Below are positions 1 through 19,474 of a stretch of 21,656 nt of DNA, piece by piece. The translations under genes and the position numbers were made by a program. The DNA lies in the IMG/VR virus record IMGVR_UViG_3300032163_000682, positions 1 through 21,656 of that record. One strand, 5' to 3'. Below the pieces are notes generated by a model, which was given only the letters and a program-made list of their open reading frames with translations, was not told where the DNA came from and made no database searches. Position 1 is the first letter of the stretch. Each line of letters opens with the position of its first letter. Origin of the DNA: a virus.

Positions 1-232
1 ACATTTCCGCGTAGCGTTCCAGTGACGGATCAACAACCTCTACAATTACATCAGGTTGTTCGTTTAGGATAGTGGTGGTATTAACAATCGAGACAGGACA
101 CACGCGACTTACTACAATCCCGGCTAAAATACCGGCGGTCATAAAGATACTAACAATGCAGATGTTTAATCCCCACTCTCGCAGGAAGGAAACAACGGAA
201 TTCCGCCACGTTGGTTCAAAATCTCGATACAT
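1..232 (-). CDS. Partial single-pass membrane protein, N-terminal part
   Basis: An open frame read leftward from the ATG at 232 runs off the window edge, so only about 77 residues are seen. It begins MYRDFEPTWRN, followed by one clear hydrophobic segment at about residues 25-43 (NICIVSIFMTAGILAGIVV). The tail beyond it is acidic and hydrophilic (NEQPDVIVEVVDPSLERYAE). The ATG lies 15 bases past the stop of the upstream gene; an in-frame GTG six bases earlier is an alternative start. A short N-terminal arm, one helix and a soluble tail would fit a phage membrane accessory or lysis protein, but no family is recognised. It is probably the last visible member of the leftward operon. Confidence 0.6.
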   Translation of the reverse strand, partial: MYRDFEPTWRNSVVSFLREWGLNICIVSIFMTAGILAGIVVSRVCPVSIVNTTTILNEQPDVIVEVVDPSLERYAEM

Positions 233-247
233 CGCAATCACCCACCA

Positions 248-868
248 TTAAGACACACGTTGATACCAACTATTAAAGGAAAACCCATATTTCTTTAACA
301 GTTCGGTATCCTTTTTAAAATCTTTTGAAGTATTAAAAAAATCCTGTGCAGCCTCCCCCGGCCCCTTCCCCCATCCCGGTTGCACAGGATGTCCATTCAA
401 GTTTGTATCCTCAACCACAAGATACTGTCCTCTTGTTACCTTGGGTGCCCATAACTGCAACTCTTTAAGTACATGAGGATAATGATGATCTGAGTCAAGT
501 ACCACCATCGTGCGAGCAATACCCGCTTCCATATGTTGCGCATACTCACCAACATCTTGGAAACTACTATCACCTTTCAGGTATTGAATACGAGGGTGTG
601 TGGGGCGATTTAATGTATCCGACGTATCTATGGAAATTATCCACCCCTCACCTAACTGATCTAATACCATAGCCATAAACAATGCTGAACCCCCACACCA
701 AGTTCCAGTCTCCACAATAATTTGTGGTTTATTGGTATAGATAATCTCTTGCAGAAGAATCAGGTCGGTCGGACTCTTGAGAACTTGATTTCCACACCAA
801 GCGCCTTTTGACCATCCATGAGAATCATAAAACCATTTATGATAAGCTTCTGCTGGAGTCGTTGACAT
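248..868 (-). CDS. CmcI-like SAM-dependent methyltransferase/hydroxylase family protein
   Basis: This 206-residue protein resembles the cephalosporin hydroxylase/rhamnosyl O-methyltransferase (CmcI) family, which has a Rossmann SAM-binding fold. The SAM motif I region is IVETGTWCGGSALFMA (about residues 50-65). It is followed by an acidic strand end (SIDTSD) and the typical metal/substrate segment VVLDSDHHYPHVLKELQLW. A later family signature is VVEDTNLNGHPVQPGWGKGP. Length is near that of a single-domain family member. The ATG at 868 has a good ribosome site (AGAGGA) about 7 bases upstream. It sits just downstream of a glycosyltransferase gene, so methylation of a sugar or surface glycan is a reasonable inference. 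Family assignment is good; the substrate is unknown. Confidence 0.85.
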   Translation of the reverse strand: MSTTPAEAYHKWFYDSHGWSKGAWCGNQVLKSPTDLILLQEIIYTNKPQIIVETGTWCGGSALFMAMVLDQLGEGWIISIDTSDTLNRPTHPRIQYLKGDSSFQDVGEYAQHMEAGIARTMVVLDSDHHYPHVLKELQLWAPKVTRGQYLVVEDTNLNGHPVQPGWGKGPGEAAQDFFNTSKDFKKDTELLKKYGFSFNSWYQRVS

Positions 869-880
869 CTAATCATTCCT

Positions 881-967
881 CTAAGAAAGGCTAAAAGTAT
901 GGGCAATAGCACAGGTACTATCGGCCATAATCTCACCGGCATTTACAGCAGTAGAACTAAGGTTCAT
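881..967 (-). CDS. Possible 28-residue peptide between glycosyltransferase and methyltransferase
   Basis: A short leftward frame starts at an ATG that overlaps the TGA of the upstream glycosyltransferase gene in an ATGA arrangement. It reads MNLSSTAVNAGEIMADSTCA and ends eight residues later at a TAG. It then leaves 12 bases before the next gene start, which has its own ribosome site. The ATGA coupling and the way it fills the intergenic gap are the only support. No family is recognised, and at this length it could be chance. Confidence 0.35.
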   Translation of the reverse strand: MNLSSTAVNAGEIMADSTCAIAHTFSLS

Positions 968-1986
968 TTACACCTTTCGGTATGCGCTACAATTTCGTCC
1001 ATCGCAACCAAGGCTTGTGGCATACTCTCATAAAAAGCGGAAGTCAGGACGTAAGAATATGGTTTGTGAACTTCCAGTTTAGGTCCATATTCAATCAACC
1101 ATTTATCAGCGGCAATTTTCCACTTTGGATCATTATAACCTCCCGTGGAGGCATGACCAAGATTAAGATCACAAGCAACCCCGAGTTTAAATCCCTTTTG
1201 CCACGCTCGATAGGACCAGTCCACATCGTACATGTGGAACGAATCACACATAACTTCATCGAAGGGGTGTTTTTCCAAGACTCCACGTTTACACGCAAGC
1301 CAGAATCCATCCAAGACATGAATACCACCCACTACCCTACCGGGAACTCCAAAGACCGACAAATTGTAGATTTGTACGGGCTTGAACCCATCGGGATATT
1401 GGAGGTATAGATGATCTTTTTGGCCATTAGTCGTCAATCGAAGGTTTTTACCACCTTTACTAATAGCTTCTTGTATTGCGGCAGAGAGATCGGCAGGAGA
1501 TGTAATCGCCTTATCATAGATATGAGTCACCGTCATACCGGGATGAAGAAAATGTTTAGAGGGTACGCTACCCGGTCGTACACCAGCGATGATGCACTTA
1601 TCGCCTTGAAACTGAAACCCCAATCCAATGTCTACCTGGGGAGGAGCGATATTGAGAACTTGGCCAAAAACGTGGTTAAGTCCCGCCGTGAACCACTGTG
1701 GACCAACCAGTTTATCAGCTCCCGCCCCACCAATGATATCAAATTTTTGCACGTGGGAGCGTATTTTTGATCCCACACAGGGACGAAGGGGAGCCGCATC
1801 GTCATGGGAGAGAATAACAATCTCTCCATGTGCGGACCTAAATCCTCGATTATATCCCTCCGCCATTGATTTAGCATCCGGAATACGGATAAGTTCCCAA
1901 TTTTCCCCCGCGAGTACTTGTTCGTAAGCACTCTTGACTTGTTGATATTTGTTGTCGTCACGAGAGTTTATCAGGACTGAAAACAT
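964..1986 (-). CDS. Family 2-like glycosyltransferase with an inserted PDZ-like domain
   Basis: The protein has 340 residues from the ATG at 1986; a TTG six bases earlier is also in frame. The N-terminal part is a GT-A nucleotide-sugar domain: FSVLINSRDD at the start, then GYNRGF (45-50) and the DXD-like metal site SHDDA (60-64). The family's second half is present at about 204-285: VVGGIHVLDGFWLACKRGV, FDEVMCDSFHMYDVDW and GVACDLNLGHAS. Between these halves, residues 119-198 form a block that reads as a PDZ domain. It has a GLGF loop (121-124), then IIAGVRPGS, LHPGMTVTHIYDKAITSPADL and a closing LRLTTNG strand. Membership in the glycosyltransferase family is clear; the PDZ reading is by pattern. 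The neighbouring methyltransferase suggests glycan decoration of the host surface or virion. Confidence 0.85.
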   Translation of the reverse strand: MFSVLINSRDDNKYQQVKSAYEQVLAGENWELIRIPDAKSMAEGYNRGFRSAHGEIVILSHDDAAPLRPCVGSKIRSHVQKFDIIGGAGADKLVGPQWFTAGLNHVFGQVLNIAPPQVDIGLGFQFQGDKCIIAGVRPGSVPSKHFLHPGMTVTHIYDKAITSPADLSAAIQEAISKGGKNLRLTTNGQKDHLYLQYPDGFKPVQIYNLSVFGVPGRVVGGIHVLDGFWLACKRGVLEKHPFDEVMCDSFHMYDVDWSYRAWQKGFKLGVACDLNLGHASTGGYNDPKWKIAADKWLIEYGPKLEVHKPYSYVLTSAFYESMPQALVAMDEIVAHTERCK

Positions 1987-2050
1987 AATCAATATCCGAA
2001 CGAACTTTACAGGAATGCTTTATAATCGCTGTCCCTTGACCGCACAAGCT

Positions 2051-2269
2051 TCAATTCTCCCTCAATGTGTAAGGTATAAACACAAAACCATCGACGGATA
2101 TTTTCTCGTCCTCCGTCAGTTCTCCTTCATCCTCACTCTCTTCATCCTCTGGCACGTTAGCCCACCACTCATCAGTGAGAAAAGACTCATACATCTGCAA
2201 TAAATCCCGGACAGAGATATCATTAACTTCTTTGCCCAGGTCCTCGAGAAATTTATCCCAGCTATTCAC
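2051..2269 (-). CDS. Small acidic protein, unknown function
   Basis: A 72-residue frame starts from GTG at 2269, with GGAG about 10 bases upstream. It begins MNSWDKFLEDLGKEV and is strongly acidic in the middle (PEDEESEDEGELTEDEK), ending in a short hydrophobic stretch (FVFIPYTLREN). Two amphipathic N-terminal segments (WDKFLEDL and VRDLLQMYESFL) suggest a small helical adaptor. It is the first substantial gene of the leftward operon, about 150 bases downstream of the promoter at 2415-2453. No family is recognised; acidic phage proteins of this size include DNA mimics, but nothing here proves that. Confidence 0.6.
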   Translation of the reverse strand: MNSWDKFLEDLGKEVNDISVRDLLQMYESFLTDEWWANVPEDEESEDEGELTEDEKISVDGFVFIPYTLREN

Positions 2270-2351
2270 GTTTGCACAACTCCAGTCTCTTTGAAAAAAT
2301 AGGAATAGGAATAAGAATAAAAACCGAAAGTCGTATTGACGGGGAAAGCAT
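2262..2351 (-). CDS. Possible 29-residue leader peptide
   Basis: A leftward ATG at 2351, preceded by GAGGG a few bases upstream, opens a 29-codon frame that starts MLSPSIRLSVFILIPIPIFS. It stops inside the start region of the acidic gene, overlapping its GTG by 8 bases. This is the layout of a translationally coupled leader, and the peptide has a hydrophobic core. The ribosome site is close to the start and the frame is short, so this is a tentative call. Confidence 0.25.
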   Translation of the reverse strand: MLSPSIRLSVFILIPIPIFSKRLELCKRE

Positions 2352-2414
2352 AACCCTCGAAAACGTCAGTTCTCCTTGAGACGTGGCTTTCACACAGCGG
2401 AAAATACGGCCTCC

Positions 2415-2453
2415 GGTTTAATTAACCTTACCACATAAATCGCTACCTGTCAA
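2415..2453 (-). promoter_or_regulatory. Leftward promoter with shared 18-nt element
   Basis: On the minus strand a consensus -35 box TTGACA (2453-2448) is followed by a 17-base spacer and a weak -10 TAAGGT (2430-2425). The -10 lies in GGTAAGGTTAATTAAACC (2432-2415), which recurs exactly at 7499-7516 in front of the rightward replication operon. The element contains the near-palindrome around TTAATTAA at the expected transcription start, so it could also be an operator. It would drive the leftward genes from 2351 to the window edge. Confidence 0.6.
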
Positions 2454-2469
2454 ATATATTTTTATAATA

Positions 2470-2490
2470 GGACTAGAATAGTACTAGTCC
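2470..2490. repeat. Inverted repeat upstream of the leftward promoter
   Basis: GGACTAG (2470-2476) and CTAGTCC (2484-2490) form a perfect 7-bp dyad around a 7-base centre. It lies in AT-rich DNA about 17 bases upstream of the leftward -35 box, a position suited to an activator or repressor site. Confidence 0.45.
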
Positions 2491-2843
2491 AATTTTTACA
2501 CACAGTCGGGAGGCGATAAGAGAAGGACCCACGCGGATGGGACCCAAAGTCAAAGGGTGGGACCGGGGTATGTCCCATAATACATGCCTTGCCATGCGTG
2601 AATGAACACATAAGCTTAACATAATATATATTATAAGTCTATATCTATGGGTTGTACACCCATGTTGCGAACCACAACCAATGGACCACGAATTGACGAC
2701 TAGCAGCTAATAGGACTGATAACCATAACACTACACCCGTCCTTACTGCCCGCCACAGCGACGCAGACACACGATCTCCCCTCAAACCATACCAAAGTAC
2801 CTCTGAGCTAGAGGGATGCGTCTGCGTTGACGTGACAGCCAAA

Positions 2844-2892
2844 GTGAACCGGAGCCAGGGTGAACCAAAGCCAGGTGTGAGGCTGCTCACAC
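2844..2892. repeat. 16-bp tandem repeat followed by a perfect hairpin
   Basis: GTGAACCGGAGCCAGG (2844-2859) is followed head to tail by GTGAACCAAAGCCAGG (2860-2875); 14 of 16 positions match. Directly after comes a perfect hairpin, GTGTGAG (2875-2881), loop GCTG, CTCACAC (2886-2892). The compact repeat-plus-dyad arrangement is typical of protein-binding control DNA. Confidence 0.6.
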
Positions 2893-3014
2893 AGGACCCC
2901 CGAATCCGGCGCCACGCACCCTCATTTTCAGGCCAATCCCCTATATATAAAGATATACGTGACATTCCATGGACTAAGTCTAGTAAAATCAAGAGCTTCT
3001 GGAGTTATTACCCC

Positions 3015-3069
3015 TGAATTCCATGTGAATTCCATGATCATGTAATTCACGGCCCTCTCATGTAATTCA
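3015..3069. repeat. Cluster of direct and inverted 11-bp iteron-like repeats
   Basis: TGAATTCCATG occurs twice with no gap (3015-3025 and 3026-3036). Two inverted copies differing at one base, CATGTAATTCA, follow at 3039-3049 and 3059-3069. A further degenerate inverted copy (CATAGAATTCA) begins at 3074, and a degenerate forward copy (TGACATTCCATG) lies upstream near 2960. AT-rich DNA with alternating TA runs follows immediately. The spacing and mixed orientation resemble initiator or repressor binding arrays. Confidence 0.6.
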
Positions 3070-3234
3070 TCCACCATAGAATTCATATATATAATAATTC
3101 CAGAAGTACTTATTATATATATATTTAGTACATGTAGTTCTTTATAATGTATGTATAGGGAAAACAGGGTCAATTCTAAACTGATTACAAGTGTAATTTA
3201 TCAGATTCTTGTGGTTAGTCCACTACTTAGTCCA

Positions 3235-3318
3235 TGTGGCAGATCGCCTCACCTATATGTTGCTCTGCCACACAGGGATATTACTTACGACAATTTGACC
3301 GTGTGGCAGATCGCCACA
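3235..3318. promoter_or_regulatory. Palindromic operator copies
   Basis: TGTGGCAGATCGCCACA at 3302-3318 is a perfect 6-bp dyad (TGTGGC/GCCACA) around AGATC. A second copy at 3235-3251 shares the first 14 bases and diverges in the second arm. An inverted partial copy (TCTGCCACAC) lies at 3264-3273. The perfect copy exactly occupies the promoter spacer at 3301-3318, so a protein bound there would block RNA polymerase. Confidence 0.6.
3281..3294 (+). repeat. Direct repeat TTACTTACGACAAT, copy 1
   Basis: This 14-nt sequence lies directly upstream of the candidate -35 box at 3295 and recurs exactly at 3549-3562. A function is not evident; position suggests an activator or leader-related site. Confidence 0.55.
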
Positions 3319-3324
3319 TATGAG
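3295..3324 (+). promoter_or_regulatory. Candidate rightward promoter for the small-gene/amidoligase operon
   Basis: TTGACC (3295-3300, five of six consensus) and TATGAG (3319-3324, four of six) are separated by 18 bases, and the 17-bp palindromic operator fills that spacer. Transcription would run through a roughly 270-base leader, containing a hairpin at 3515-3547, to the first gene at 3604. The -10 is weak, so the call is moderate. Confidence 0.45.
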
Positions 3325-3487
3325 TCTTACTGTATCACTGCAATCTTTGCACCCGACTTGACACACTGATATTCATCATGTATCATGTGTGCATGACAGG
3401 GCGACTGGTGGTCGGAGGATTTTTCCGACGTAGATATCTTTACGGTCCGTTTGCCTTTTTTGGAACATGGTGTATATTGATGTAGTG

Positions 3488-3550
3488 TTCTCTCTCTCTC
3501 TCCCTTCCCTCCCGCCCTCGTGCTTCTGCTCGCAAGCGGCACGGGGGTTT
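3488..3550 (+). terminator. Pyrimidine tract and terminator-like hairpin in the leader
   Basis: A 26-base pure pyrimidine run (3488-3513, including a CT microsatellite) precedes a 9-bp stem, 3515-3523 with 3539-3547 (CCCTCGTGC against GCACGGGGG, one U-G pair). The loop is 15 bases and only three Ts follow, so it is at best a weak intrinsic terminator or attenuator before the first gene of the rightward operon. Confidence 0.35.
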
Positions 3551-3562
3551 ACTTACGACAAT
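3549..3562 (+). repeat. Direct repeat TTACTTACGACAAT, copy 2
   Basis: This is the exact second copy of the 14-mer at 3281-3294, here just after the leader hairpin. It overlaps a small dyad, ACGACA (3555-3560) with TGTCGT (3564-3569), about 40 bases before the first gene start. Confidence 0.55.
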
Positions 3563-3603
3563 GTGTCGTGATGTTTGTTGTGGATGCCTTTGTTGGAGAT
3601 TAT

Positions 3604-3777
3604 ATGACGTTGAACGAATTGCTAGCTAAGATTGGAATCAAGACGTTGAATGAACTACTTAAACTGCTGGCACCTGCTCTAACGCAGCGGGCAATTGAGC
3701 TGTTCACTGCTGGGGAGGTGCGGGCGGCGGGCAACACCCGCAAACTTGCCGCGGTAATCGCCAAGCTTGTCGATTAG
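3604..3777 (+). CDS. 57-residue helical protein, unknown function
   Basis: The start was set at the ATG at 3604, which has TTGGAG six to seven bases upstream; longer upstream frames run into the leader hairpin. The protein begins MTLNELLAKIGIKTLNELLK and has an internal near-repeat (TLNELLAKIGIK and TLNELLKLLA), so it should be mostly amphipathic helix. It ends RKLAAVIAKLVD. Its TAG stop forms the 5' arm of the structured element at 3775-3824. It is first in the operon that leads to the amidoligase. No family is recognised. A small helical protein beside an amidoligase could be a ligation substrate, but that is inference only. Confidence 0.65.
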   Translation: MTLNELLAKIGIKTLNELLKLLAPALTQRAIELFTAGEVRAAGNTRKLAAVIAKLVD

Positions 3778-3824
3778 TGTTTCCGTTACTGCGCTCCACC
3801 AGGAGCGCGGTTGCTGCAACACTA
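3775..3824 (+). ncRNA. Structured intergenic element, copy A
   Basis: An outer stem TAGTGTT (3775-3781) with AACACTA (3818-3824) encloses an inner hairpin GCGCTCC (3791-3797), loop ACCA, GGAGCGC (3802-3808). The element begins at the stop codon of the preceding gene and ends about 15 bases before the next GTG start. Copy B at 4120-4170 keeps the outer stem and position but has a different inner stem that still pairs. No U-tract follows, so it is not a simple terminator. Confidence 0.6.
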
Positions 3825-3838
3825 GCAGAGAAAAGAGA

Positions 3839-4012
3839 GTGACCGTGGAAATTTATGTGGTGAAAATGGTATTTACAAACCCCATCACGGGGTTGCTTCG
3901 ATTTATCGAAGTGAAGCTTGAGGCGGAGTCCCTGGGGGCAGCGGAATGCTTGGCACGACGTACCTTGGAGGATGCCGTAGCTCATCCGTCATTACTAGCC
4001 ATCATTGACTAG
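3839..4012 (+). CDS. Small protein of about 57 residues, unknown function
   Basis: The likely start is GTG at 3839 or GTG at 3845, both following the purine-rich run AGAGAAAAGAGAG; the upstream part of the open frame crosses structured element A and is not used. The protein reads VEIYVVKMVFTNPITGLLRF, then IEVKLEAESLGAAECLARRTLEDAV, and ends LLAIID. The strand-strand-helix pattern with an alternating EIYVVKMVF strand suggests a small alpha/beta fold. It sits between the two structured elements and upstream of the amidoligase. No family is recognised. Confidence 0.6.
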   Translation: MTVEIYVVKMVFTNPITGLLRFIEVKLEAESLGAAECLARRTLEDAVAHPSLLAIID

Positions 4013-4020
4013 GAGAGCAC

Positions 4021-4122
4021 GTGTCGCAGTGGCAAGTTTTTTCGGGCGGCCATTGGTGGAATACGACCGCAGAGGGTGCGGCGTTTCATGCCACCTATGG
4101 GCATCTTGTTCGATTGATTTAG
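4021..4122 (+). CDS. 33-residue protein, unknown function
   Basis: GTG at 4021 follows a clear ribosome site (CTAGGAGAG) that itself starts at the previous gene's stop codon. The frame reads (M)SQWQVFSGGHWWNTTAEGA, ends HLVRLI and stops at a TAG that forms the start of structured element B. It is tryptophan-, glycine- and histidine-rich. The ribosome site, tight spacing and the same stop-within-element layout as the gene at 3604-3777 make it likely to be real despite its size. Confidence 0.55.
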   Translation: MSQWQVFSGGHWWNTTAEGAAFHATYGHLVRLI

Positions 4123-4170
4123 TGTTTCGATTTCCACCGCCCTGGTGAGGCGGCGGATACCGCAACACTG
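4120..4170 (+). ncRNA. Structured intergenic element, copy B
   Basis: The outer stem TAGTGTT (4120-4126) pairs with AACACTG (4164-4170; the last pair is U-G). The inner hairpin is CCGCC (4137-4141), loop CTGGTGA, GGCGG (4149-4153). The outer stem is conserved with copy A (3775-3824), while the inner stem changed on both sides and still pairs. Downstream, both copies lead into a purine-rich ribosome site and a GTG start, here that of the amidoligase at 4185. Confidence 0.6.
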
Positions 4171-4184
4171 ATAGGAAAGAGATT

Positions 4185-5549
4185 GTGCCGTTGCAAATTC
4201 CTTCACAATTGGTGCCTCCACCCAGCGGTCCCGGCGGTCCCGCCGGCGGCCCCGGTGATCTCGCCCCCAGCGGCCCCGGCGGCCCCGCAGGCGGTGCACT
4301 CGGCCCGCCCAATGGCCCCGGCGGATTCGGCCCCCCACCTACAGTAGACGGGCTTATCCCCTGCGCGGACTGTGGGCGGTCTTTTAATCCGGGGGATAGT
4401 ATTGTGTTCGCCGGCGAGCATGTTTGCCCCAACTGTCGGATATCGTGTGAGACATGTTCTGCTCATTTTCGTGCTTTCGATTCAACCAGTTATGTCAGGG
4501 CATACGATAGCTATCGTCGTACCAATCGACAGTTGTTGCCTTATTGTGAAATACACACTTTTGTGTGTGCTGATTGCAACACTCGATTTGCCGACGATAT
4601 GACCAGTTACTATAACTCTCATAATGAGCGCATTTGTCAAGACTGCACAGATAACTACACTAACTGCGAAGAGTGTGGGAATATCATTCACCAAAATGAT
4701 GTGTATAGTTACCGGTGCAATGCGTTTTGTTCATCATGCTATGATGAAATAGTATGTGAAGAAGAAAACGAAAATATTCGCCTTATCCATGACTATGATT
4801 ATAAGCCAGAGTCTGAATTCCACGTTGTCGATTGTGAAGAAAAACATGAAGATACCTTATATTTTGGGATTGAATTAGAGGTAGATTATGGAGGGGAAAC
4901 AGATGAAGGCGTGGAAACTGCAAATTTGAGTGAATTGTATTACTGTAAACATGATGGTAGTTTGGACAACGGCTTTGAAATAGTCTCCCATCCGGCCACG
5001 TGGCGATATTGGTTAGCAGCTGATCTAACCTGGATGAAACGGTTGAAATCGGCAGATTACAAATCCTATAACACCAAAACATGCGGTATGCACATTCACG
5101 TTAGCCGCAAAGCGCTCAGTGAATTAGATATCTTGAAGTTGGTAGAGTTTTTTAAACGTAATCAAGCGTTCATCATCTACATGTCGCGACGATTGCCAAG
5201 CCTCCTGCGACAGTGGGCGCAGGTTGATGAGTCTTGTCGGACCAATATATTGCGCAAAATTAAGCGCAAATTGGGCGATGACCGATATCGGGCGATTAAT
5301 ATTCGCCCCACCACTACAATTGAATTTCGCATTTTTCGCGGTACTCTGGATGCGCAGGCGTTCCTGCGTAATTTGGCGTTTATCCGATCACTAATCGCTT
5401 TCGTTAAACGTAGTAAGTTGCCACAAATGACGCACGCTGATTATCTGAGATACTTGCGCTCCCACGCAAACCAAGTGTTGGAAAATGAGCAGATTGCTCT
5501 ACAGTTGATTGCGTGGGTGACGGGGTTTAACGAAAGAGGAAACCACTAA
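4185..5549 (+). CDS. Zinc-finger amidoligase-family protein with Gly/Pro-rich N-terminus
   Basis: This 454-residue protein starts at GTG with AGGAAAG upstream. Residues 1-54 are Gly/Pro-rich and contain PSGPGGPAGG twice (13-22, 28-37), encoded by very GC-rich DNA. Residues 60-195 hold about eight Cys pairs or singles (CADC, CPNC, CETC, CADC, CQDC, CEEC, CSSC), consistent with several zinc ribbons or LIM-like knuckles. The catalytic part matches the amidoligase_2 (glutamine-synthetase-like COOH-NH2 ligase) family: FGIELEVD (about 227-234, metal-binding Glu), CGMHIHVSR (300-308) and TIEFRIFRGTL (378-388). The family is predicted to form amide bonds using ATP. The next gene, a class II amidotransferase, could supply ammonia or cleave amides. 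The substrate is unknown. Confidence 0.8.
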   Translation: MPLQIPSQLVPPPSGPGGPAGGPGDLAPSGPGGPAGGALGPPNGPGGFGPPPTVDGLIPCADCGRSFNPGDSIVFAGEHVCPNCRISCETCSAHFRAFDSTSYVRAYDSYRRTNRQLLPYCEIHTFVCADCNTRFADDMTSYYNSHNERICQDCTDNYTNCEECGNIIHQNDVYSYRCNAFCSSCYDEIVCEEENENIRLIHDYDYKPESEFHVVDCEEKHEDTLYFGIELEVDYGGETDEGVETANLSELYYCKHDGSLDNGFEIVSHPATWRYWLAADLTWMKRLKSADYKSYNTKTCGMHIHVSRKALSELDILKLVEFFKRNQAFIIYMSRRLPSLLRQWAQVDESCRTNILRKIKRKLGDDRYRAINIRPTTTIEFRIFRGTLDAQAFLRNLAFIRSLIAFVKRSKLPQMTHADYLRYLRSHANQVLENEQIALQLIAWVTGFNERGNH

Positions 5550-6289
5550 TGTGCATAATGATAGTACAACCGAAAGGTGTGGGCAAAATACCTGACGCCA
5601 CGCTCCGCAATTGTTGGCGTGGCAATCACGATGGGGCGGGGTATATGTTTGCCACCGGGGGTAAACTGATTGTGCGTAAGCCATTCTTTAGGCTCAGGGG
5701 GTTACTGCAAGCATATGGTGCGGACTATGCTGTTTACGGTGGACTATCACCATTCGTTTTACACTTCCGTTGGGCAACGCACGGCAGTCGGACAACGAGC
5801 AATACGCATCCGCATGACGTTATACCTGACACCGTAGCATTAGTGCATAATGGGATATTACCTGCAGCTATCCCTGTTGGTGAAGATATTTCGGACACAG
5901 TGTGGTTTATTCGCGAATATCTATCGGGATTGCCGGTAGATAAATTGATGAGTAGAAGATGGAAGTATAAATTAGGTAAGGTTATCGGTCCTTCCAACAA
6001 ATTTGCGATGATGGATTATCGTGGGCGAGTATCTATCGTTAATCAAAATATGGGGGAATGGGATAGCGGCGTGTGGTATAGTAACTCTGGTTATCGTGAG
6101 TCGCTGATTTACGCCCCTTTAACTACTCAAGCCTGGCTAAGCAAATGGGCAGATGCTCCAGAGCATCGAGTATACGACGACCACCAGCAAACAAACAATC
6201 GTTGCTTATATGGGGAATCATTTGGCGATATGGAGGATCAAGAACTACGGGACCTGGACGAGGCATTTGCTCAGCACATTGCAAAGTAG
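5549..6289 (+). CDS. Class II glutamine amidotransferase
   Basis: This 246-residue Ntn-hydrolase-fold protein starts at an ATG that overlaps the amidoligase TAA by one base, with AGAGGAAA upstream. Cys2 (MCIMIVQP) is the expected N-terminal nucleophile once Met is removed. Other family marks are NHDGAGYMF, the glutamine-binding block HFRWATHGSRTTSNTHPH and ALVHNGIL. The length covers only the glutaminase domain, with no synthase domain attached, so the released ammonia would have to be used by a partner. The coupled amidoligase and the phosphoribosyltransferase 11 bases downstream are both candidates. Family confidence is high; pathway is inferred. Confidence 0.9.
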   Translation: MCIMIVQPKGVGKIPDATLRNCWRGNHDGAGYMFATGGKLIVRKPFFRLRGLLQAYGADYAVYGGLSPFVLHFRWATHGSRTTSNTHPHDVIPDTVALVHNGILPAAIPVGEDISDTVWFIREYLSGLPVDKLMSRRWKYKLGKVIGPSNKFAMMDYRGRVSIVNQNMGEWDSGVWYSNSGYRESLIYAPLTTQAWLSKWADAPEHRVYDDHQQTNNRCLYGESFGDMEDQELRDLDEAFAQHIAK

Positions 6290-6300
6290 CGAGAGGTAAC

Positions 6301-6729
6301 ATGATATCCTGTGCAAGCTATTTGCGAAAAGTACTTGATCCTTCTAGCCTTACTAGAGTCACTCGTCAGATAGCTAAAGTATTGAACAACCAACAATTTG
6401 ATGCGATAGCGATATCCGGATTAAGTGGATTATTAGTTGGTCCAGTCGTATCGGTAACAATGAAAAAACCTTTAGTGGTAGTACGCAAAGATGAAACCAG
6501 CCATTCGTCTTATGAAATCGAAACCAGTTTGCCGAACGGGGTGACGTGGAACTATATCATTCTTGATGATTTAATTTGTCTTGGCCATACAGTGGAACGA
6601 ATCATTAGCACTATCGGAAGACAATTCTCACAAACTAAGTGCGTTGGTATCGTATTATATCACGCCTGTTGTATCAATAAATGGGTCCGAAATTCTGATG
6701 AATCCTTCCCCGTGTTTGATGCAACGTAG
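6301..6729 (+). CDS. Type I phosphoribosyltransferase-like protein
   Basis: The start is ATG at 6301 after GAGAGG; the open frame extends upstream but over the preceding gene. The 142-residue protein has the PRTase core: AIAISGLSGLLVGP (PPi-loop region, about 36-48), PLVVVRK (58-64) and the PRPP-binding motif YIILDDLICLGHT (85-97) with the paired acidic residues D89-D90. It lacks an identifiable base-specific hood, so the acceptor cannot be named. It follows a class II amidotransferase; the two domain types are fused in amidophosphoribosyltransferase PurF, but here they are separate genes beside an amidoligase. Confidence 0.8.
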   Translation: MISCASYLRKVLDPSSLTRVTRQIAKVLNNQQFDAIAISGLSGLLVGPVVSVTMKKPLVVVRKDETSHSSYEIETSLPNGVTWNYIILDDLICLGHTVERIISTIGRQFSQTKCVGIVLYHACCINKWVRNSDESFPVFDAT

Positions 6730-6753
6730 TAAACTTAACTCAGAGGTATGAAA

Positions 6754-6978
6754 ATGACGCGTAGAGATTATGTTATGATTGCGGGAGCAATCAATCGTGC
6801 TGTGCAATGCGGGCGCAACCTGGACACACCAGACCGGCAGCAAGCAGCCGACGTAGTACTTCAGCTTACCATTGCCGAACTAGGTTATGTGTTTAGTCAA
6901 GATAGCGAACGGTTTGACCGTGAGCGATTTGAGAATGCTTGCCGCAAAAATATACGCATTGGCGTAAGAGACGAATAG
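6754..6978 (+). CDS. Small conserved phage protein, RRDYVMIA type
   Basis: Two in-frame ATGs exist (6748 and 6754). The second is preferred because AGAGG then lies about 7 bases upstream and the protein begins MTRRDYVMIAGAINRAV. This N-terminus and the later RFDRERFENAC segment match a widespread short phage protein of unknown function (R/K-DY-x-LIA ... FDRxRFLxAC). At 74 residues it is a usual length. It belongs to the same operon as the amidoligase cassette. Confidence 0.75.
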   Translation: MTRRDYVMIAGAINRAVQCGRNLDTPDRQQAADVVLQLTIAELGYVFSQDSERFDRERFENACRKNIRIGVRDE

Positions 6979-6987
6979 GAGATAATC

Positions 6988-7185
6988 GTGCAGCGTTATT
7001 GGTGGACCTACAAAAACGAAAAAGTGTTGGATAGAGGAATAGCTAAAACTTTTAGAGGCATCGACCGCAGAGCGATGAGAGTTCATCGGTGTGGCGCAAA
7101 TTTGATGTATACTTACAGCAAAGAAGATAGGGAAGCGTGCATCCGCGAAATGGGTTTAATAGAGGTAAAAAATGTCGCCGATTAA
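6988..7185 (+). CDS. Small basic protein, unknown function
   Basis: GTG at 6988 follows GGAG by about 6 bases and lies 9 bases after the previous stop. The 65-residue product starts MQRYWWTYKNEKVLDRGIAK and is basic and aromatic-rich at the N-terminus. No family is recognised. Its end overlaps the next gene start by 14 bases, which supports translation. Confidence 0.65.
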   Translation: MQRYWWTYKNEKVLDRGIAKTFRGIDRRAMRVHRCGANLMYTYSKEDREACIREMGLIEVKNVAD

Positions 7186-7420
7186 GGTATCTAAAGTGGG
7201 CAAGCCTATTTGGCGTGAGTCAGAGCGCGAATACGCGGGCCGGGCAATAGTGGTGGGACTAGAACCGCTAAGTATTTGCTTCCGTCTCGCCGGTTGCCGA
7301 CAAGTGGTCCGCCTGCCCATTGGACTGGCTTATGAGCGGGCTTGTCAGCTTGAAGCAAATCACGTTAAACCAAAGCGCGTGCGGCGGACCTTCAGACGTG
7401 GCGCATTAGCCTTCCAATAA
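7172..7420 (+). CDS. Small basic phage-type protein
   Basis: ATG at 7172 has AGAGGTAAAA upstream and overlaps the previous gene by 14 bases. The 82-residue product has a beta-rich middle (GRAIVVGLEPLSICFRLAG, then RQVVRLPIGLAYERACQLEA) and a strongly basic tail (KPKRVRRTFRRG). Short phage proteins of this general shape are common upstream of replication genes. It is the last gene before the promoter at 7479-7506. Function unknown. Confidence 0.65.
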   Translation: MSPIKVSKVGKPIWRESEREYAGRAIVVGLEPLSICFRLAGCRQVVRLPIGLAYERACQLEANHVKPKRVRRTFRRGALAFQ

Positions 7421-7451
7421 TAACCGACCGCTATTGGGTGTTATCGGACGA

Positions 7452-7516
7452 GCAATCCGGGCAATCCGGGTATTTTGTTTGCTTTTCGTCTGAAATAGGG
7501 TAAGGTTAATTAAACC
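7452..7516 (+). promoter_or_regulatory. Rightward promoter of the replication operon, with shared 18-nt element
   Basis: GGTAAGGTTAATTAAACC (7499-7516) repeats exactly, in the transcription sense, the element of the leftward promoter at 2415-2432. Here TAAGGT (7501-7506) would be the -10 and TTGCTT (7479-7484, 16-base spacer) a weak -35. Upstream, GCAATCCGG is repeated in tandem (7452-7460, 7461-7469), possibly an activator site compensating for the poor -35. The first gene starts 14 bases after the element. Confidence 0.55.
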
Positions 7517-7530
7517 CGTATAGGTAAGCA

Positions 7531-7761
7531 ATGAAATCTGGAACATGTAACTGGAGTAGTGCAAAGCAACAAGGGCATAACCCAAAGGACACAAAGGCCA
7601 CTCAAATTTGGGCGGGTATTCAGGAAATGGAATTGAATAATCGCAGATCAGCATTGCGTGAAAGTCGCCGATCTTCAACGCGAATAGCGCGTTCTTTTTG
7701 TCAGCGTTTGGAAGATGGGTTTGAGATGCTACACCCCGATAATGGAAATGATCCGGCTTAA
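7531..7761 (+). CDS. Small protein preceding the DNA polymerase, unknown function
   Basis: ATG at 7531 follows AGGTAAGC. The 76-residue product is hydrophilic and basic in the middle, running from WAGIQEMELNNRRSALRESR to SSTRIARSF, and ends ...HPDNGNDPA. It is first in the operon behind the promoter at 7479-7506 and ends 3 bases before the polymerase start. A DNA-associated role would suit charge and context, but no motif is recognised. Confidence 0.6.
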   Translation: MKSGTCNWSSAKQQGHNPKDTKATQIWAGIQEMELNNRRSALRESRRSSTRIARSFCQRLEDGFEMLHPDNGNDPA

Positions 7762-7764
7762 TTT

Positions 7765-9846
7765 ATGACAAAACCCCCGCCTCCATTACCTAAATCTTTG
7801 CCCCCACTACCAATTGTAATCCCCACACTAAAGATGTGGACGGAGGTATTGCAGCAAGCCGATTATCCCAAAACAGTGATTGTCTTGGATTTTGAGACGT
7901 ACTATGATACTGAGTATTCGATGGGGCCAAAAAGACTGTCCACTATTGAATACATACAAGATAAACGGTTTGAGATATTGGGCGTTGGTTTATTGACGAT
8001 GAAGGCGGATTATCCATTCAAAGAATACGAACAGGGAAGCAAATTTTGGTCCCATAATTTAGGGATGATAGTTACTTTACAGGATTTGTACGGGCAAAAT
8101 TTGGAGCGTTGCACTGTTGTGGTGCAGAATGCAATTTTTGATGCGGGTATACTCGCTTACCGTTATGGTATTTATCCGCCCTATATCATTGACACCTTAT
8201 CCCTTGCTCGTCATTGGTGTGCGCGTTCCAAACACGGGTTAGCCGATCTTTGCAAACAATGGGGGTTGAAAGACAAGGGAGATACGAAAGAATTTGCCGG
8301 GTTATCCGCCAAGTTTCGATTCGTGCGACAGAAGAATAACAAACCGCCCATACGAATTGCTCCATCCGCTTCGACCGCCCCTATCTGGGTAAATCTAGCT
8401 CGCTATTGTGAGAACGATATCGCCCGTACATGGGAAGTTTTTACATTGCTCTTGCCTCGATTGTCTAATCCTCACGTGGAATTGCCGCTAATGCAGCGAA
8501 CATTAGAGCTATTCACAAAACCACAGTTGGAATTTGATTCAATCAAAGCAGAGATTCTAGAACGGCAAATACGGGGGGAGATGAATGCAGATTTAGAGGC
8601 GGTGAGCGCATCGCAAAAAGAAATTTCTGGGACGATAAGTTTTGATAGGCTTATGACTAAAGCTCTAGAGGATGCTGGGGAATCCCCTCTTAATTACATG
8701 AAAACAGGCAAGAAGGGTATGCTGCTGGCTTTAGCCAAAGGGGATGAGGGTCGAAAAAAGTTATTGACTCACTATAATGAACGGGTGAGAAACCTAATTA
8801 AAGCTCGTTTATCAGTTAAGAGTTGGCCATTGCATATATCTCGTATTGATAATATGCAGTTTCAAGCGATAGCGGCAAAAGGTAAACTTCCCATTGCTCT
8901 TAAATACTATGGAGCACATACCGGGCGTTGGAGTGGTGGGGAAAAAATTAACCCACAAAATCTCGGAGGCAAAGGTGACAACTACCTCATCAACGGAATA
9001 CGCAAACTCATTATCGCTCCCGAAGGATATAAGCTCGTCATTGCGGATGCTGCTCAGATTGAGGCTCGCGTGCTTGCCTGGCTTGCCGGGCAAGATGATT
9101 TGGTGGAACAATTCAGGCAGAACATTGACGCATATTCGGCCCTCGCCTCGAAGGTATTGGGGAAAACTGTAAGAAAAGCCAAAGACGGGGAACTAGATTA
9201 TGAGGAAATGAAAGAAGCCCGTGGCTTCGGCAAAGTGGGCGTACTCGGCTGTGGCTATGGTATGGGTGCGGAGCAAATGAAAATCTACGCCGCCACCCCA
9301 CCATTCAATTTAGAATTGACCGACGGAATGGCTCGGCGGATAGTTGATAGCTACCGCAAAACTAACCCAATGATTACCCTATTCTGGCAAGATATCGAAG
9401 ATGCCTTTAGATTTACTGCCCATTGGGGTAGACCCGGCAAGTTGCGAAATTTAGCCTTTTCTGGTACAAAAGAATGCCATGTACAGATTACCTTACCTAG
9501 TGGGCGAATGCTTTATTACCATAAAGTAAGACTAGTGAATAATGGTATTGAAGTGTGGAACGATTTGCATAATAAATGGGAGTATACCTGGGGCGGTTCG
9601 CTGACAGAAAATGTGGTACAGGCTATCGCGAGGGACATACTTGCAGAATCATGGTTACGATTGGAAGCTGCTGGCATCCACGTTGCCTTGACTGTTCACG
9701 ACGAATTAGTATCGGTTATACCCGAAACTCAAACCCAACACGCGTTACAAGCGTCCCTCTTTAGTTTAAGTGCGCCCCCCATATGGGCAAAAGACTTGCC
9801 ACTCTCGGCAGAAGGTAAGATCGCGGATAGGTATGGCGAACATTAA
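7765..9846 (+). CDS. polA: Phage family A DNA polymerase with 3'-5' exonuclease
   Basis: This 693-residue replicative polymerase has a proline-rich N-terminus. The proofreading exonuclease shows VIVLDFETYYD (D42, E44; ExoI), VVQNAIFDAGI (ExoII) and RYCENDIARTWEVF (ExoIII). The polymerase domain has the template-binding block AHTGRWSGGEKINPQN, motif A as ADAAQIEARVLAW (D428; the usual DYSQIE is DAAQIE), motif B RGFGKVGVLGCGYGMG (R486, K490, Y498) and motif C VHDELVS (H645-E647). Aligned on K490 and Y498, the position equal to E. coli Phe762 is Leu494. There is no 5' nuclease domain, as is usual for phage forms. It is followed two bases later by the methyltransferase gene. Confidence 0.95.
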   Translation: MTKPPPPLPKSLPPLPIVIPTLKMWTEVLQQADYPKTVIVLDFETYYDTEYSMGPKRLSTIEYIQDKRFEILGVGLLTMKADYPFKEYEQGSKFWSHNLGMIVTLQDLYGQNLERCTVVVQNAIFDAGILAYRYGIYPPYIIDTLSLARHWCARSKHGLADLCKQWGLKDKGDTKEFAGLSAKFRFVRQKNNKPPIRIAPSASTAPIWVNLARYCENDIARTWEVFTLLLPRLSNPHVELPLMQRTLELFTKPQLEFDSIKAEILERQIRGEMNADLEAVSASQKEISGTISFDRLMTKALEDAGESPLNYMKTGKKGMLLALAKGDEGRKKLLTHYNERVRNLIKARLSVKSWPLHISRIDNMQFQAIAAKGKLPIALKYYGAHTGRWSGGEKINPQNLGGKGDNYLINGIRKLIIAPEGYKLVIADAAQIEARVLAWLAGQDDLVEQFRQNIDAYSALASKVLGKTVRKAKDGELDYEEMKEARGFGKVGVLGCGYGMGAEQMKIYAATPPFNLELTDGMARRIVDSYRKTNPMITLFWQDIEDAFRFTAHWGRPGKLRNLAFSGTKECHVQITLPSGRMLYYHKVRLVNNGIEVWNDLHNKWEYTWGGSLTENVVQAIARDILAESWLRLEAAGIHVALTVHDELVSVIPETQTQHALQASLFSLSAPPIWAKDLPLSAEGKIADRYGEH

Positions 9847-11258: not shown

Positions 11259-11593
11259 ATGAAAACAATAGCTTACGATCCCCCGATTGTTACATTCGAT
11301 GATGATGGAATTCGTCCCAATGGAAAATCTGCTGAATGCCTTTATTGTAATCAAAAAATCGGACAAAAGCATACATATGATTGTGTGACGTTTACGAAAA
11401 AGTTCGTCTGCGATATATTTTCAATGTGGAGGTTGAAGTTCCGCATTTTTGGAATAAGCAAGACATTCAATTTCACTATAATGATAGTAGTTGGTGTGCT
11501 GATAATGCCGTAGATGATATTAATTCACAATTGAAAGATGACATTGCGTGCTTATGTCAGTTTTTTAAATGTGAATTTGTGGAAGAAATATAG
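11259..11593 (+). CDS. Zinc-knuckle phage protein split by a -1 frameshift near 11395
   Basis: Frame 1 from ATG 11259 reads MKTIAYDPPIVTFDDDGIR, then CLYCNQKIGQKHTYDC (a C-x2-C...H...C metal site), then DCVTFTKK. After the run CGAAAAAG (about 11395-11402) the sensible protein continues in the -1 frame: VRLRYIFNVEVEVPHFWNKQ, then IQFHYNDSSWCADNAVDDI and CLCQFFKCEFVEEI to the TAG at 11591. A short phage protein family with the order CxxC...H..DC, a strand-rich VEVP..W segment and N-SSWC-DN...C-C fits only if the two frames are joined. One extra A in the run restores it. It could be a sequencing or assembly slip, a real inactivating deletion, or recoding. Confidence 0.7.
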
Positions 11594-11603
11594 AAAAGGA
11601 CAT

Positions 11604-12128
11604 ATGCAAACAGATGTGTTTAATAAACCGTCGGCGTGGAAGGGATTGGAAACTAAATACAAGAAGTATTTACCGGATGGATTTGATCCGCGCATTATTG
11701 TTGAAATTGGCGTTGACTACGGATATTCATTCTTCCACTTTGCAAAAGATTGGCCATTAACTTTGGTGATGGGAATCGACTGGTATGGTCCATCCGCTCT
11801 TCACAGCGATGCAGAGGTGTGGGTTAAATCCCATTTGCCGGAATTTCCTAATACTCAACTAATTGTAGGTGATAGTCGTAAAGCCGCACAAGAGTGGAAA
11901 ATACCGATTGATCTCCTACACATTGACGCTATCCACGATTACGAGAATCTCAGGGTTGACTTCACCGCTTGGGAGCCGCACGTGCGTCCCGGTGGAGTAG
12001 TCATGTTCCACGACGTTATATCTTTCCCGGATATGGCATGTTTTTTTTGGGAAATTCCGGGGCATAAAGAATTGATACAAGAACATCATGGATTAGGTTA
12101 CTGGTTTAAACCAATGGAAAATAAATGA
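11604..12128 (+). CDS. Class I SAM-dependent methyltransferase
   Basis: The ATG at 11604 with AAAAGGA upstream is used; the frame extends further back over the preceding gene. The 174-residue protein has motif I IIVEIGVDYGYSFFHFA (about 31-47), MGIDWYGPS as motif II, VGDSRKAAQEW, and IDLLHIDAIHDYENLRVDF followed by VRPGGVVMFHDV, the metal and post-motif pattern of the Methyltransf_24 group. Such enzymes methylate small molecules or sugars rather than DNA. A second, CmcI-like relative is at 248-868. Why it lies in the replication operon is not evident. Confidence 0.82.
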   Translation: MQTDVFNKPSAWKGLETKYKKYLPDGFDPRIIVEIGVDYGYSFFHFAKDWPLTLVMGIDWYGPSALHSDAEVWVKSHLPEFPNTQLIVGDSRKAAQEWKIPIDLLHIDAIHDYENLRVDFTAWEPHVRPGGVVMFHDVISFPDMACFFWEIPGHKELIQEHHGLGYWFKPMENK

Positions 12129-14489: not shown

Positions 14490-14680
14490 TAAAAAAGTTG
14501 TGGACAATAGTGTCCGATGTTGCGGGTTATCCTCTTATTGTGGTGGGTAAAGATGAAATGGAAGCCGCTCGCAACTATAAGGCGCATATCGCGGAGGCGT
14601 ATTCAGACGGTGAAATTATTCTTAGGCCAAGAGACATAATGATAAATACTATAATTCGCGGAAAGGCGGTGCTAGTTTGA
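14486..14680 (+). CDS. Small protein, unknown function
   Basis: ATG 14486 overlaps the ATPase TGA, and the stop overlaps the next TTG start. The 64-residue product reads MIKKLWTIVSDVAGYPLIVV, then KDEMEAARNYKAHIAEAY. The strand-helix pattern suggests a compact alpha/beta protein. Coupling supports translation; function is unknown. Confidence 0.65.
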   Translation: MIKKLWTIVSDVAGYPLIVVGKDEMEAARNYKAHIAEAYSDGEIILRPRDIMINTIIRGKAVLV

Positions 14681-15054
14681 TTATTCCACGAAATACATTT
14701 ATTTTAGTACGATTGTTAGAAAAGCAAGAAGAAAAGATCGGTAATATCACTGTGCCAGGTTACAATGATCTTTTTTGTGAGGGTGAAATTCTCGCTGTTG
14801 GTCCTGGCACTGTGTCTGCCGCAGGGGGCGTGAGTGAGACATTCGATCTCAAGGTTGGTCAACGAGTATATGTCCAGCATATGCGACAAGCTTTTGGTCC
14901 AACGGGCAGACAAAATCAATTGGATGGATATCGCATCGTTCTAGACGGCGAAGCTGTTTACCTGTTTGAACAGATAAATATCCTCGCTGTATTAGCGGAA
15001 ATTTCGACTATCAACATCCGTCCTCGGGATGGTACGTTGAAGAACTTTAACTAA
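14677..15054 (+). CDS. GroES-like co-chaperonin
   Basis: The TTG at 14677, in a TTGA overlap with the previous stop, gives the full family N-terminus IIPRNTFILVRLLEKQEEKI. The 125-residue protein then follows the Cpn10 order: a mobile-loop-like region (GNITVPGYNDL), CEGEILAVGPGTV, LKVGQRVYVQ and a late YRIVLDGEAVYLFEQINILAVL hydrophobic strand. It carries an extra C-terminal tail of about 25 residues beyond the usual Cpn10 length. Phage co-chaperonins (such as T4 gp31) replace host GroES for folding viral proteins. No GroEL is present in the window. Confidence 0.78.
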   Translation: MIIPRNTFILVRLLEKQEEKIGNITVPGYNDLFCEGEILAVGPGTVSAAGGVSETFDLKVGQRVYVQHMRQAFGPTGRQNQLDGYRIVLDGEAVYLFEQINILAVLAEISTINIRPRDGTLKNFN

Positions 15055-18181: not shown

Positions 18182-18374
18182 AGAAAAAGTGCTCGTGGCA
18201 TGGGTAAATTTCAATGATGGAACCAATCCAATGGAATTTCCACTTAAAACAGGTGGGAGGTTTATTCATCAAGAAAAATGGCTTATACTAACTAACGAGG
18301 CAAACACTAAATTGATTGCAGGTATTCGACAATCAGCCATCCGTAGTTATGGATTCTCGTGGAGGATTAAGTGA
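18165..18374 (+). CDS. Small protein, unknown function
   Basis: ATG 18165 follows AGAGGATAAA and lies inside the last 17 bases of the primase-helicase gene; an in-frame upstream extension is not needed. The 69-residue product starts MKKQTREKVLVAWVNFNDGT, then ...PMEFPLKTGGRFIHQEKW and ends ...YGFSWRIK. It looks like a small beta-rich protein. Its stop overlaps the next GTG start. Confidence 0.65.
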   Translation: MKKQTREKVLVAWVNFNDGTNPMEFPLKTGGRFIHQEKWLILTNEANTKLIAGIRQSAIRSYGFSWRIK

Positions 18375-19474
18375 CACGATTACCAACAGACAAGAATGAA
18401 CGAAAAGAGCGGCCGATTACTCGTGGTGTATTGGATTACTTCCCCGATGCTATCGCGGAAGTCGCCCACGTAAGTTATATTGGCAATCAACAACACAACC
18501 CCGGTGAGGAAATGCACTGGGCGCGGGAAAAATCCTCCGACCACGCGGATTGTATCGCTCGTCATCTAGTTGAGCGGGGTGTAATCGACGACGATGGTTT
18601 ACGTCATTCCGCTAAATGCGCGTGGCGAGCTTTAGCCCTACTACAAGAGGAAATAGAAGGGGACACAACATTGAAATATCCACACCCGAAATTACGGCGA
18701 GATCAACAACGACCAGAATTATTTGTCGCATCAGATGATCCATATGAACATGAAGCGAAGATGGAACAAGAAAAGGGACAAAAAGAAGTTCGGCAACACA
18801 TAATGGACTCCATTAAGAATGGGGATGATCCAAAAAACTACCTTCCGAAATGTTCCGCCGCGATTCCATCTACGCATAAGTTAGAAGTTGATGGCTTCGA
18901 CACCAGTATAATGGGTAGAATTAAGATGGGAATAATTAAAAATGAACCAATTACACCGGTTTGGACATTCAATTGGAAAGGTCAATACGTTTATGATGCT
19001 TTGGTTAAACTCGGTTGTAATTCGACTATTGCTACCGCTATTGCAAAAAGCACAACTTATTCAGATAAGGACGCATCTTGGGTCTATATTGCTGGACCAA
19101 TGCGGGGATATGAAAAATCCAATTTTCCCGCTTTCGATTCCGCCTGTAGCACCTTCGTAAAAATGGGTTATAACGTCATTAGTCCGGCGGATATCGACCG
19201 CAATAGTGGGTATACTGAGACTATACCGCTGGAACAAACTATTGATCCAAAACCATTTGTTTATCGTGACTTCTTCGCTCTTTATTTTATTGCTCACCAG
19301 AAAGGTGGGGCTATTGTTATGTTACCTGGTTGGGAAAATTCTATAGGGGCATCAGCAGAATTTTGTTTGGCCCGATGGTTAGGATTGAAAATATATGCCG
19401 AGAACGGTTCATTTCTTCGATCTATAAACTACGGTGAGTTAAGTCGCGCTATCAGCCGTTTTCTTGTCGGATAA
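18371..19474 (+). CDS. Fusion of dATP/dGTP diphosphohydrolase-type domain and DUF4406 nucleotide hydrolase-like domain
   Basis: GTG 18371 has a strong GGAGGA site and overlaps the previous stop. Residues about 12-100 match the phage DUF5664/dATP-dGTP diphosphohydrolase N-terminal family: ERPITRGVLDYFPDAIAEVA, GNQQHNPGEEMHWAREKSSDH, RHSAKCAWRALALLQEE. A charged linker follows. Residues about 235-350 match DUF4406, a relative of nucleoside deoxyribosyltransferase/dNMP N-glycosidases: VYIAGPMRGYEKSNFPAFD, FVKMGYNVISPADIDR, FVYRDFFALYFIAHQKGGAI and VMLPGWENSIGASAEFCLA. Together these could cleave dNTPs to dNMPs and then to base plus sugar phosphate, depleting or remodelling the nucleotide pool. 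Domain calls are good; activity is inferred. Confidence 0.82.
   Translation: MTRLPTDKNERKERPITRGVLDYFPDAIAEVAHVSYIGNQQHNPGEEMHWAREKSSDHADCIARHLVERGVIDDDGLRHSAKCAWRALALLQEEIEGDTTLKYPHPKLRRDQQRPELFVASDDPYEHEAKMEQEKGQKEVRQHIMDSIKNGDDPKNYLPKCSAAIPSTHKLEVDGFDTSIMGRIKMGIIKNEPITPVWTFNWKGQYVYDALVKLGCNSTIATAIAKSTTYSDKDASWVYIAGPMRGYEKSNFPAFDSACSTFVKMGYNVISPADIDRNSGYTETIPLEQTIDPKPFVYRDFFALYFIAHQKGGAIVMLPGWENSIGASAEFCLARWLGLKIYAENGSFLRSINYGELSRAISRFLVG

Follow-up and report, generated by a model that had tools for sequence, protein, structure and literature searches.

Glycosyltransferases of the GT-A fold commonly expand the loops between their DxD and xED motifs for acceptor recognition, in a region called hypervariable region 2 (PMC7185993). 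The PDZ domain is described as a generalist and promiscuous inserted interaction domain, found in 13 host groups (PMC13114784). In the HtrA, DegQ and Do proteases, a PDZ domain follows the protease domain. Among phage-encoded glycosyltransferases, those of mycobacteriophage Maravista have been proposed to glycosylate virions, and the abstract of that study mentions no PDZ domain (PMC11256854). The enzyme described here is likewise encoded by a phage. Unlike the Maravista enzymes as described in that abstract, it carries a PDZ-like block, and unlike the PDZ domain of the proteases, this block sits within a glycosyltransferase. PDZ insertion as such is already known (PMC13114784); the unusual features here are the enzyme that hosts the domain and the origin of this enzyme from a phage. 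An earlier note on this DNA knew of no phage glycosyltransferase with such an insertion, and we also found no report of a PDZ-bearing phage glycosyltransferase in the open-access literature.

The window, i.e. the whole stretch of DNA that was analysed, corresponds to a complete IMG/VR record, which has 21,656 bases and is classified as linear. The glycosyltransferase gene lies at 964-1992 on the minus strand and has 342 codons from a TTG start, or 340 from an ATG at codon 3 (1984-1986). Residues are numbered here from the TTG; the earlier note counted from the ATG. The gene product is a GT-A-fold glycosyltransferase of the Glyco_tranf_2_5 family. The Pfam profile PF13712 matched both halves of the protein in two stretches (E = 1.2e-12, 48.4 bits against a curated cut-off of 27). 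When the insert was cut out, a single stretch was matched over residues 6-209, with 51.7 bits as compared with 48.4 bits in the presence of the insert. The proposal that two glycosyltransferase halves are split by an extra block was thus borne out.

In an alignment of 56 rows, H63, D65, G88, G91, D228, G229, F252, H253, Y255, D256 and D258 are invariant, and all of them were kept in the window protein, as were the nearly invariant H280, S282 and G284. The family-invariant patterns HxD, DG, FHxYDxD and HxSxG were all found. On the minus strand, these patterns include HDD (residues 63-65; 1798-1806), FHMYDVDW (residues 252-259; 1216-1239) and the C-terminal His motif HASTG (residues 280-284; 1141-1155). 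From what is known of GT-A enzymes (PMC7185993), we infer that HDD represents the DxD-like metal/donor site and that YDVD belongs to the xED-like catalytic-base region; the role of HASTG is similarly putative. With its conserved motifs intact, the glycosyltransferase is apparently catalytically active. AlphaFold, supplied with the 56-row alignment of glycosyltransferase rows only (run 2), predicted the core with pLDDT above 90 over most of its length and an overall pTM of 0.81. A Foldseek search with the whole model, which picks up the enzyme and not the insert, gave majastridin (2nxv/2qgi; E = 4e-8) as the top PDB match, followed by other GT-A enzymes. Majastridin, a GT-A protein from Rhodobacter blasticus with a known structure, matched the model with a TM-score of 0.61 (normalised by target); it shares 14% identity with the window enzyme and has 249 residues as compared with 342.

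Homologues were gathered from viral contigs and bacterial genomes, and 114 distinct ones, including the window protein, span the insertion site. The nearest relatives are encoded by the contigs of three sister phages (L003, L010 and L012), all without the insert. They share the conserved motifs with the window enzyme, with 52-61% identity in the N-terminal half (residues 1-114; 1651-1992, minus strand) and 40-50% in the C-terminal half (residues 199-342; 967-1398, minus strand). In these relatives, a GQVLN strand is followed by a short turn and then by the strand LSVYG or LSVYS. The spacing from N114 to L211 is 96 residues in the window protein, whereas it is 7-20 residues in the 113 other homologues, these three included. 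The segment is therefore inserted and does not belong to the regular core of the glycosyltransferase, as the earlier note had proposed. The net gain is about 80 residues, in frame. By alignment to the sister phages, the block spans about I115-L197 (about 1402-1650, minus strand), and the comparison with L010 suggests that it stands in place of about four residues; it is absent from every other homologue examined. Its limits are close to the positions 1393-1632 given for the insert previously.

In the AlphaFold model, the insert is located between strands 108-115 and 209-215, which form a hairpin. The PDZ-type domain would thus sit on the tip of this beta-hairpin, which comes after the DxD-like motif and before the xED-like one. 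PDZ domains bind C-termini or internal peptides of proteins. The termini of a PDZ domain are close together; therefore, such a domain would fit at a hairpin tip and leave the core undisturbed. By its general region, the site may be likened to hypervariable region 2 of GT-A enzymes (PMC7185993). We consider, with a probability of about 0.5, that the PDZ-type domain in this tailed-phage GT-A enzyme is a docking module that recruits a protein partner. The module would lie towards the acceptor side, and its peptide groove would hold the partner by the C-terminus or by an exposed strand. This partner may be the acceptor, for example a protein of the virion or of a membrane, or it may be a further enzyme from the same glycan pathway, and docking would then deliver the sugar to a chosen target or place. 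Alternatively, the insert may be a PDZ domain that recruits no acceptor; it would then have a structural role, mediate dimerisation or cap the active site allosterically. Loop extensions between the two motifs shape the acceptor site in GT-A enzymes (PMC7185993), and the hairpin-tip position in the model could set the insert beside the active-site cleft. However, GLGF, the signature of the PDZ carboxylate-binding loop, is kept in the translation at residues 123-126 (1615-1626, minus strand), where the predicted strand 123-129 starts, and we regard a purely structural or allosteric role as unlikely.

The assignment of the insert to PDZ comes from several sequence searches. Against all of Pfam, the insert by itself matched only PDZ_2 (PF13180; E = 0.034, 14.9 bits) and PDZ (PF00595; E = 0.17, 12.7 bits), scores that are under the curated cut-offs of 27 and 23.2 bits, respectively. 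Because of this shortfall, we call the insert PDZ-like. In the six-frame translation of the window, PF13180 gave a single match, inside the insert, at 1441-1632 on the minus strand (profile positions 2-63 of 80; E = 0.0012, 13.9 bits, again under the curated 27). As controls, one reversed and six shuffled inserts showed no Pfam match at E <= 10. In NCBIfam, the top two entries for the insert were a Trx7/PDZ protein and DegP/HtrA, both of which are PDZ-bearing. The top PDB sequence matches were weak (E = 0.3) and included PDZ chains of Rho guanine nucleotide exchange factor 11. A tblastn search of the insert against plasmids returned 57 records, with annotations as DegQ, Do or trypsin-like proteases in 39 of the best 40 listed, and in all three records that were opened the match fell within a Pfam PDZ domain. 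The reversed insert returned six unrelated plasmid records, the best with an E-value of 5.

The best database matches to the insert were the PDZ domains of HtrA/DegQ/Do proteases (PDZ_2, PF13180), with an identity of up to 42% across 60 residues and with the VRPGS and tSPxDL motifs in register. The insert differs from these domains by lacking the long loop that follows their first strand, by having PGM in place of the canonical PGD, and by its score under the cut-off. A profile built from three HtrA PDZ domains gave the insert 33.5 bits against 8.3 bits for the best of 2000 shuffles, although the former score is inflated because the three seeds were picked by their likeness to the insert. Over the fetched loci, this profile detected only protease-type ORFs besides the insert. 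With a viral HtrA PDZ profile, the seeds of which were not picked by likeness, the insert scored 8.9 bits and was beaten by one of 2000 shuffles, a result not significant alone. The motifs quoted by the earlier note, i.e. GLGF (121-124 in its numbering), IIAGVRPGS, LHPGMTVTHIYDKAITSPADL and LRLTTNG, are all present.

The insert was predicted with pLDDT of 35-70, and residues 136-159 were below 50. The predicted elements are strands 123-129 and 132-137, a helix at 166-178, and strands 184-188 and 193-197; for residues 138-165, where PDZ domains contain one helix and one strand, no element was predicted. The PDZ fold is a barrel of five to six strands with two helices. A run on the single sequence of the whole protein (run 1) reached a pLDDT of 32. 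The same secondary structure, with small shifts, appeared in both runs, neither of which was given PDZ rows. Such rows were dropped from the structure alignment, as MAFFT set them over the glycosyltransferase core. The predicted secondary structure of the insert fits the order of elements in PDZ. Structure prediction for the whole protein, which had been suggested previously, thus delivered a core above pLDDT 90 but, for the insert, PDZ-compatible secondary structure only. The earlier identification of the block as PDZ accordingly holds for the sequence searches, all of which point to PDZ where they give any signal; the PDZ fold remains putative. Judged by these searches, the insert is very probably a PDZ domain. 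It is doubtful that the insert instead belongs to another family of small beta-rich domains and resembles PDZ by convergence or by chance. The sub-threshold scores, the poor prediction of the insert and the replacement of PGD by PGM would agree with such a domain, but separate libraries and collections return PDZ and little else, and the scrambled or reversed controls do not.

The insert is known from one metagenomic contig. No second copy was found with whole-protein patterns in viral contigs or with the insert combined with a PDZ pattern, nor was any copy found in the sister phages that were reached through the neighbouring membrane protein. A first genome scan detected no relative of the window enzyme, and by tblastn none of the phage records encoded one. 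In 399 genomes from the order of a Burkholderiaceae relative, the enzyme was present in 15, with its halves close together and the insert in none. The GC content of the insert is 0.456, compared with 0.465 and 0.451 in the flanks, and its synonymous codon usage equals that of the flanks. Since its composition is the same as that of the rest of the gene, a very recent arrival is less likely. The presence of the insert in a single contig, together with the fact that no co-varying partner was found, could mean that it is a neutral passenger tolerated at the hairpin tip and functionless in this phage. However, the open frame, the hydrophobic pattern and the PDZ motifs are all kept, and we find this explanation improbable. 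An assembly artefact that joined the block from another genome, which a single metagenomic contig might bring to mind, is highly improbable, because both junctions are in frame and GC and codon usage resemble those of the flanks, and the block starts and ends at a loop able to accommodate a domain.

For a docking module, the candidate partners would be an acceptor protein, the membrane-anchored neighbour and a methyltransferase. An RMNT_CmcI-type (rhamnosyl) O-methyltransferase, a possible pathway partner (248-868, minus strand; PF04989, E = 2e-47), is encoded in the window by a gene that separates that of the glycosyltransferase from that of the membrane protein; L003, L010 and L012 have no O-methyltransferase gene at this place. 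A second methyltransferase, of the Methyltransf_24 type, is encoded at 11538-12128 on the plus strand, and the two suggest glycan methylation. Of the membrane-anchored protein, the N-terminal part is present (2-241, minus strand; E = 2e-6 to L012:5757-6326 and 35% identity over 71 aa to L170), and its C-terminus falls beyond the contig end. The gene set suggests that a sugar is built and methylated on a surface or virion component.

The membrane-anchored protein belongs to a family of small phage proteins with the motifs VEVLDPSL, HGG and CN and with no clear Pfam match; this family repeatedly adjoins glycosyltransferases or tail genes. Besides the window and L012, its members are found at L010:1080-1682 and L003:3900-4586 and in three further contigs (L168, L169 and L170). 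In two of these three, tail-type genes or other glycosyltransferase-like proteins adjoin the membrane protein, and a relative of the window enzyme is absent from the fetched stretch of all three. In L168, a pair of glycosyltransferase-like proteins (2081-4816 and 5503-7884, plus strand) flanks the same membrane-anchored protein; by eye, each apparently has an intein-like insertion (a block ending in HN before Cys).

In the sister phages, the glycosyltransferase is located near terminase genes, and its gene is followed by that of the membrane-anchored protein. In L012, it is followed by the membrane-anchored protein with VEVLDPSL and then by small genes and the terminase. The window and L012 agree in gene order and also share a glutamine-amidotransferase-like gene and an amidoligase, divergent from the glycosyltransferase, with 45% and 36% identity, respectively. 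In the window, the amidoligase (4185-5549, plus strand) is directly followed by the glutamine-amidotransferase-like gene (5549-6289, plus strand), which was named by eye and has an N-terminal Cys; the pair is conserved in L012. Elsewhere in the window, 14677-15054 (plus strand, TTG start) encodes a GroES-like co-chaperonin (Cpn10, PF00166; E = 2e-7), and 18371-19474 (plus strand) encodes the N-terminal domain of a dATP/dGTP diphosphohydrolase (PF18909) fused with DUF4406.

How phage glycosyltransferases choose their acceptors is mostly unknown. It is possible, and we put it forward tentatively, that in this phage a glycosyltransferase with a general action on the surface or virion has become targeted: with a PDZ domain inserted beside its acceptor site, the enzyme would dock on one particular protein of the phage or host, by the C-terminal tail of that protein, and would glycosylate it or work in a complex with it. 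If true, the phage would possess a glycosylation machine that is guided by a protein, and a viral glycosyltransferase would join the known hosts of PDZ insertions. Related phages that encode this enzyme either with or without a docking domain would provide a natural pair in which redirected glycosylation could be tested.
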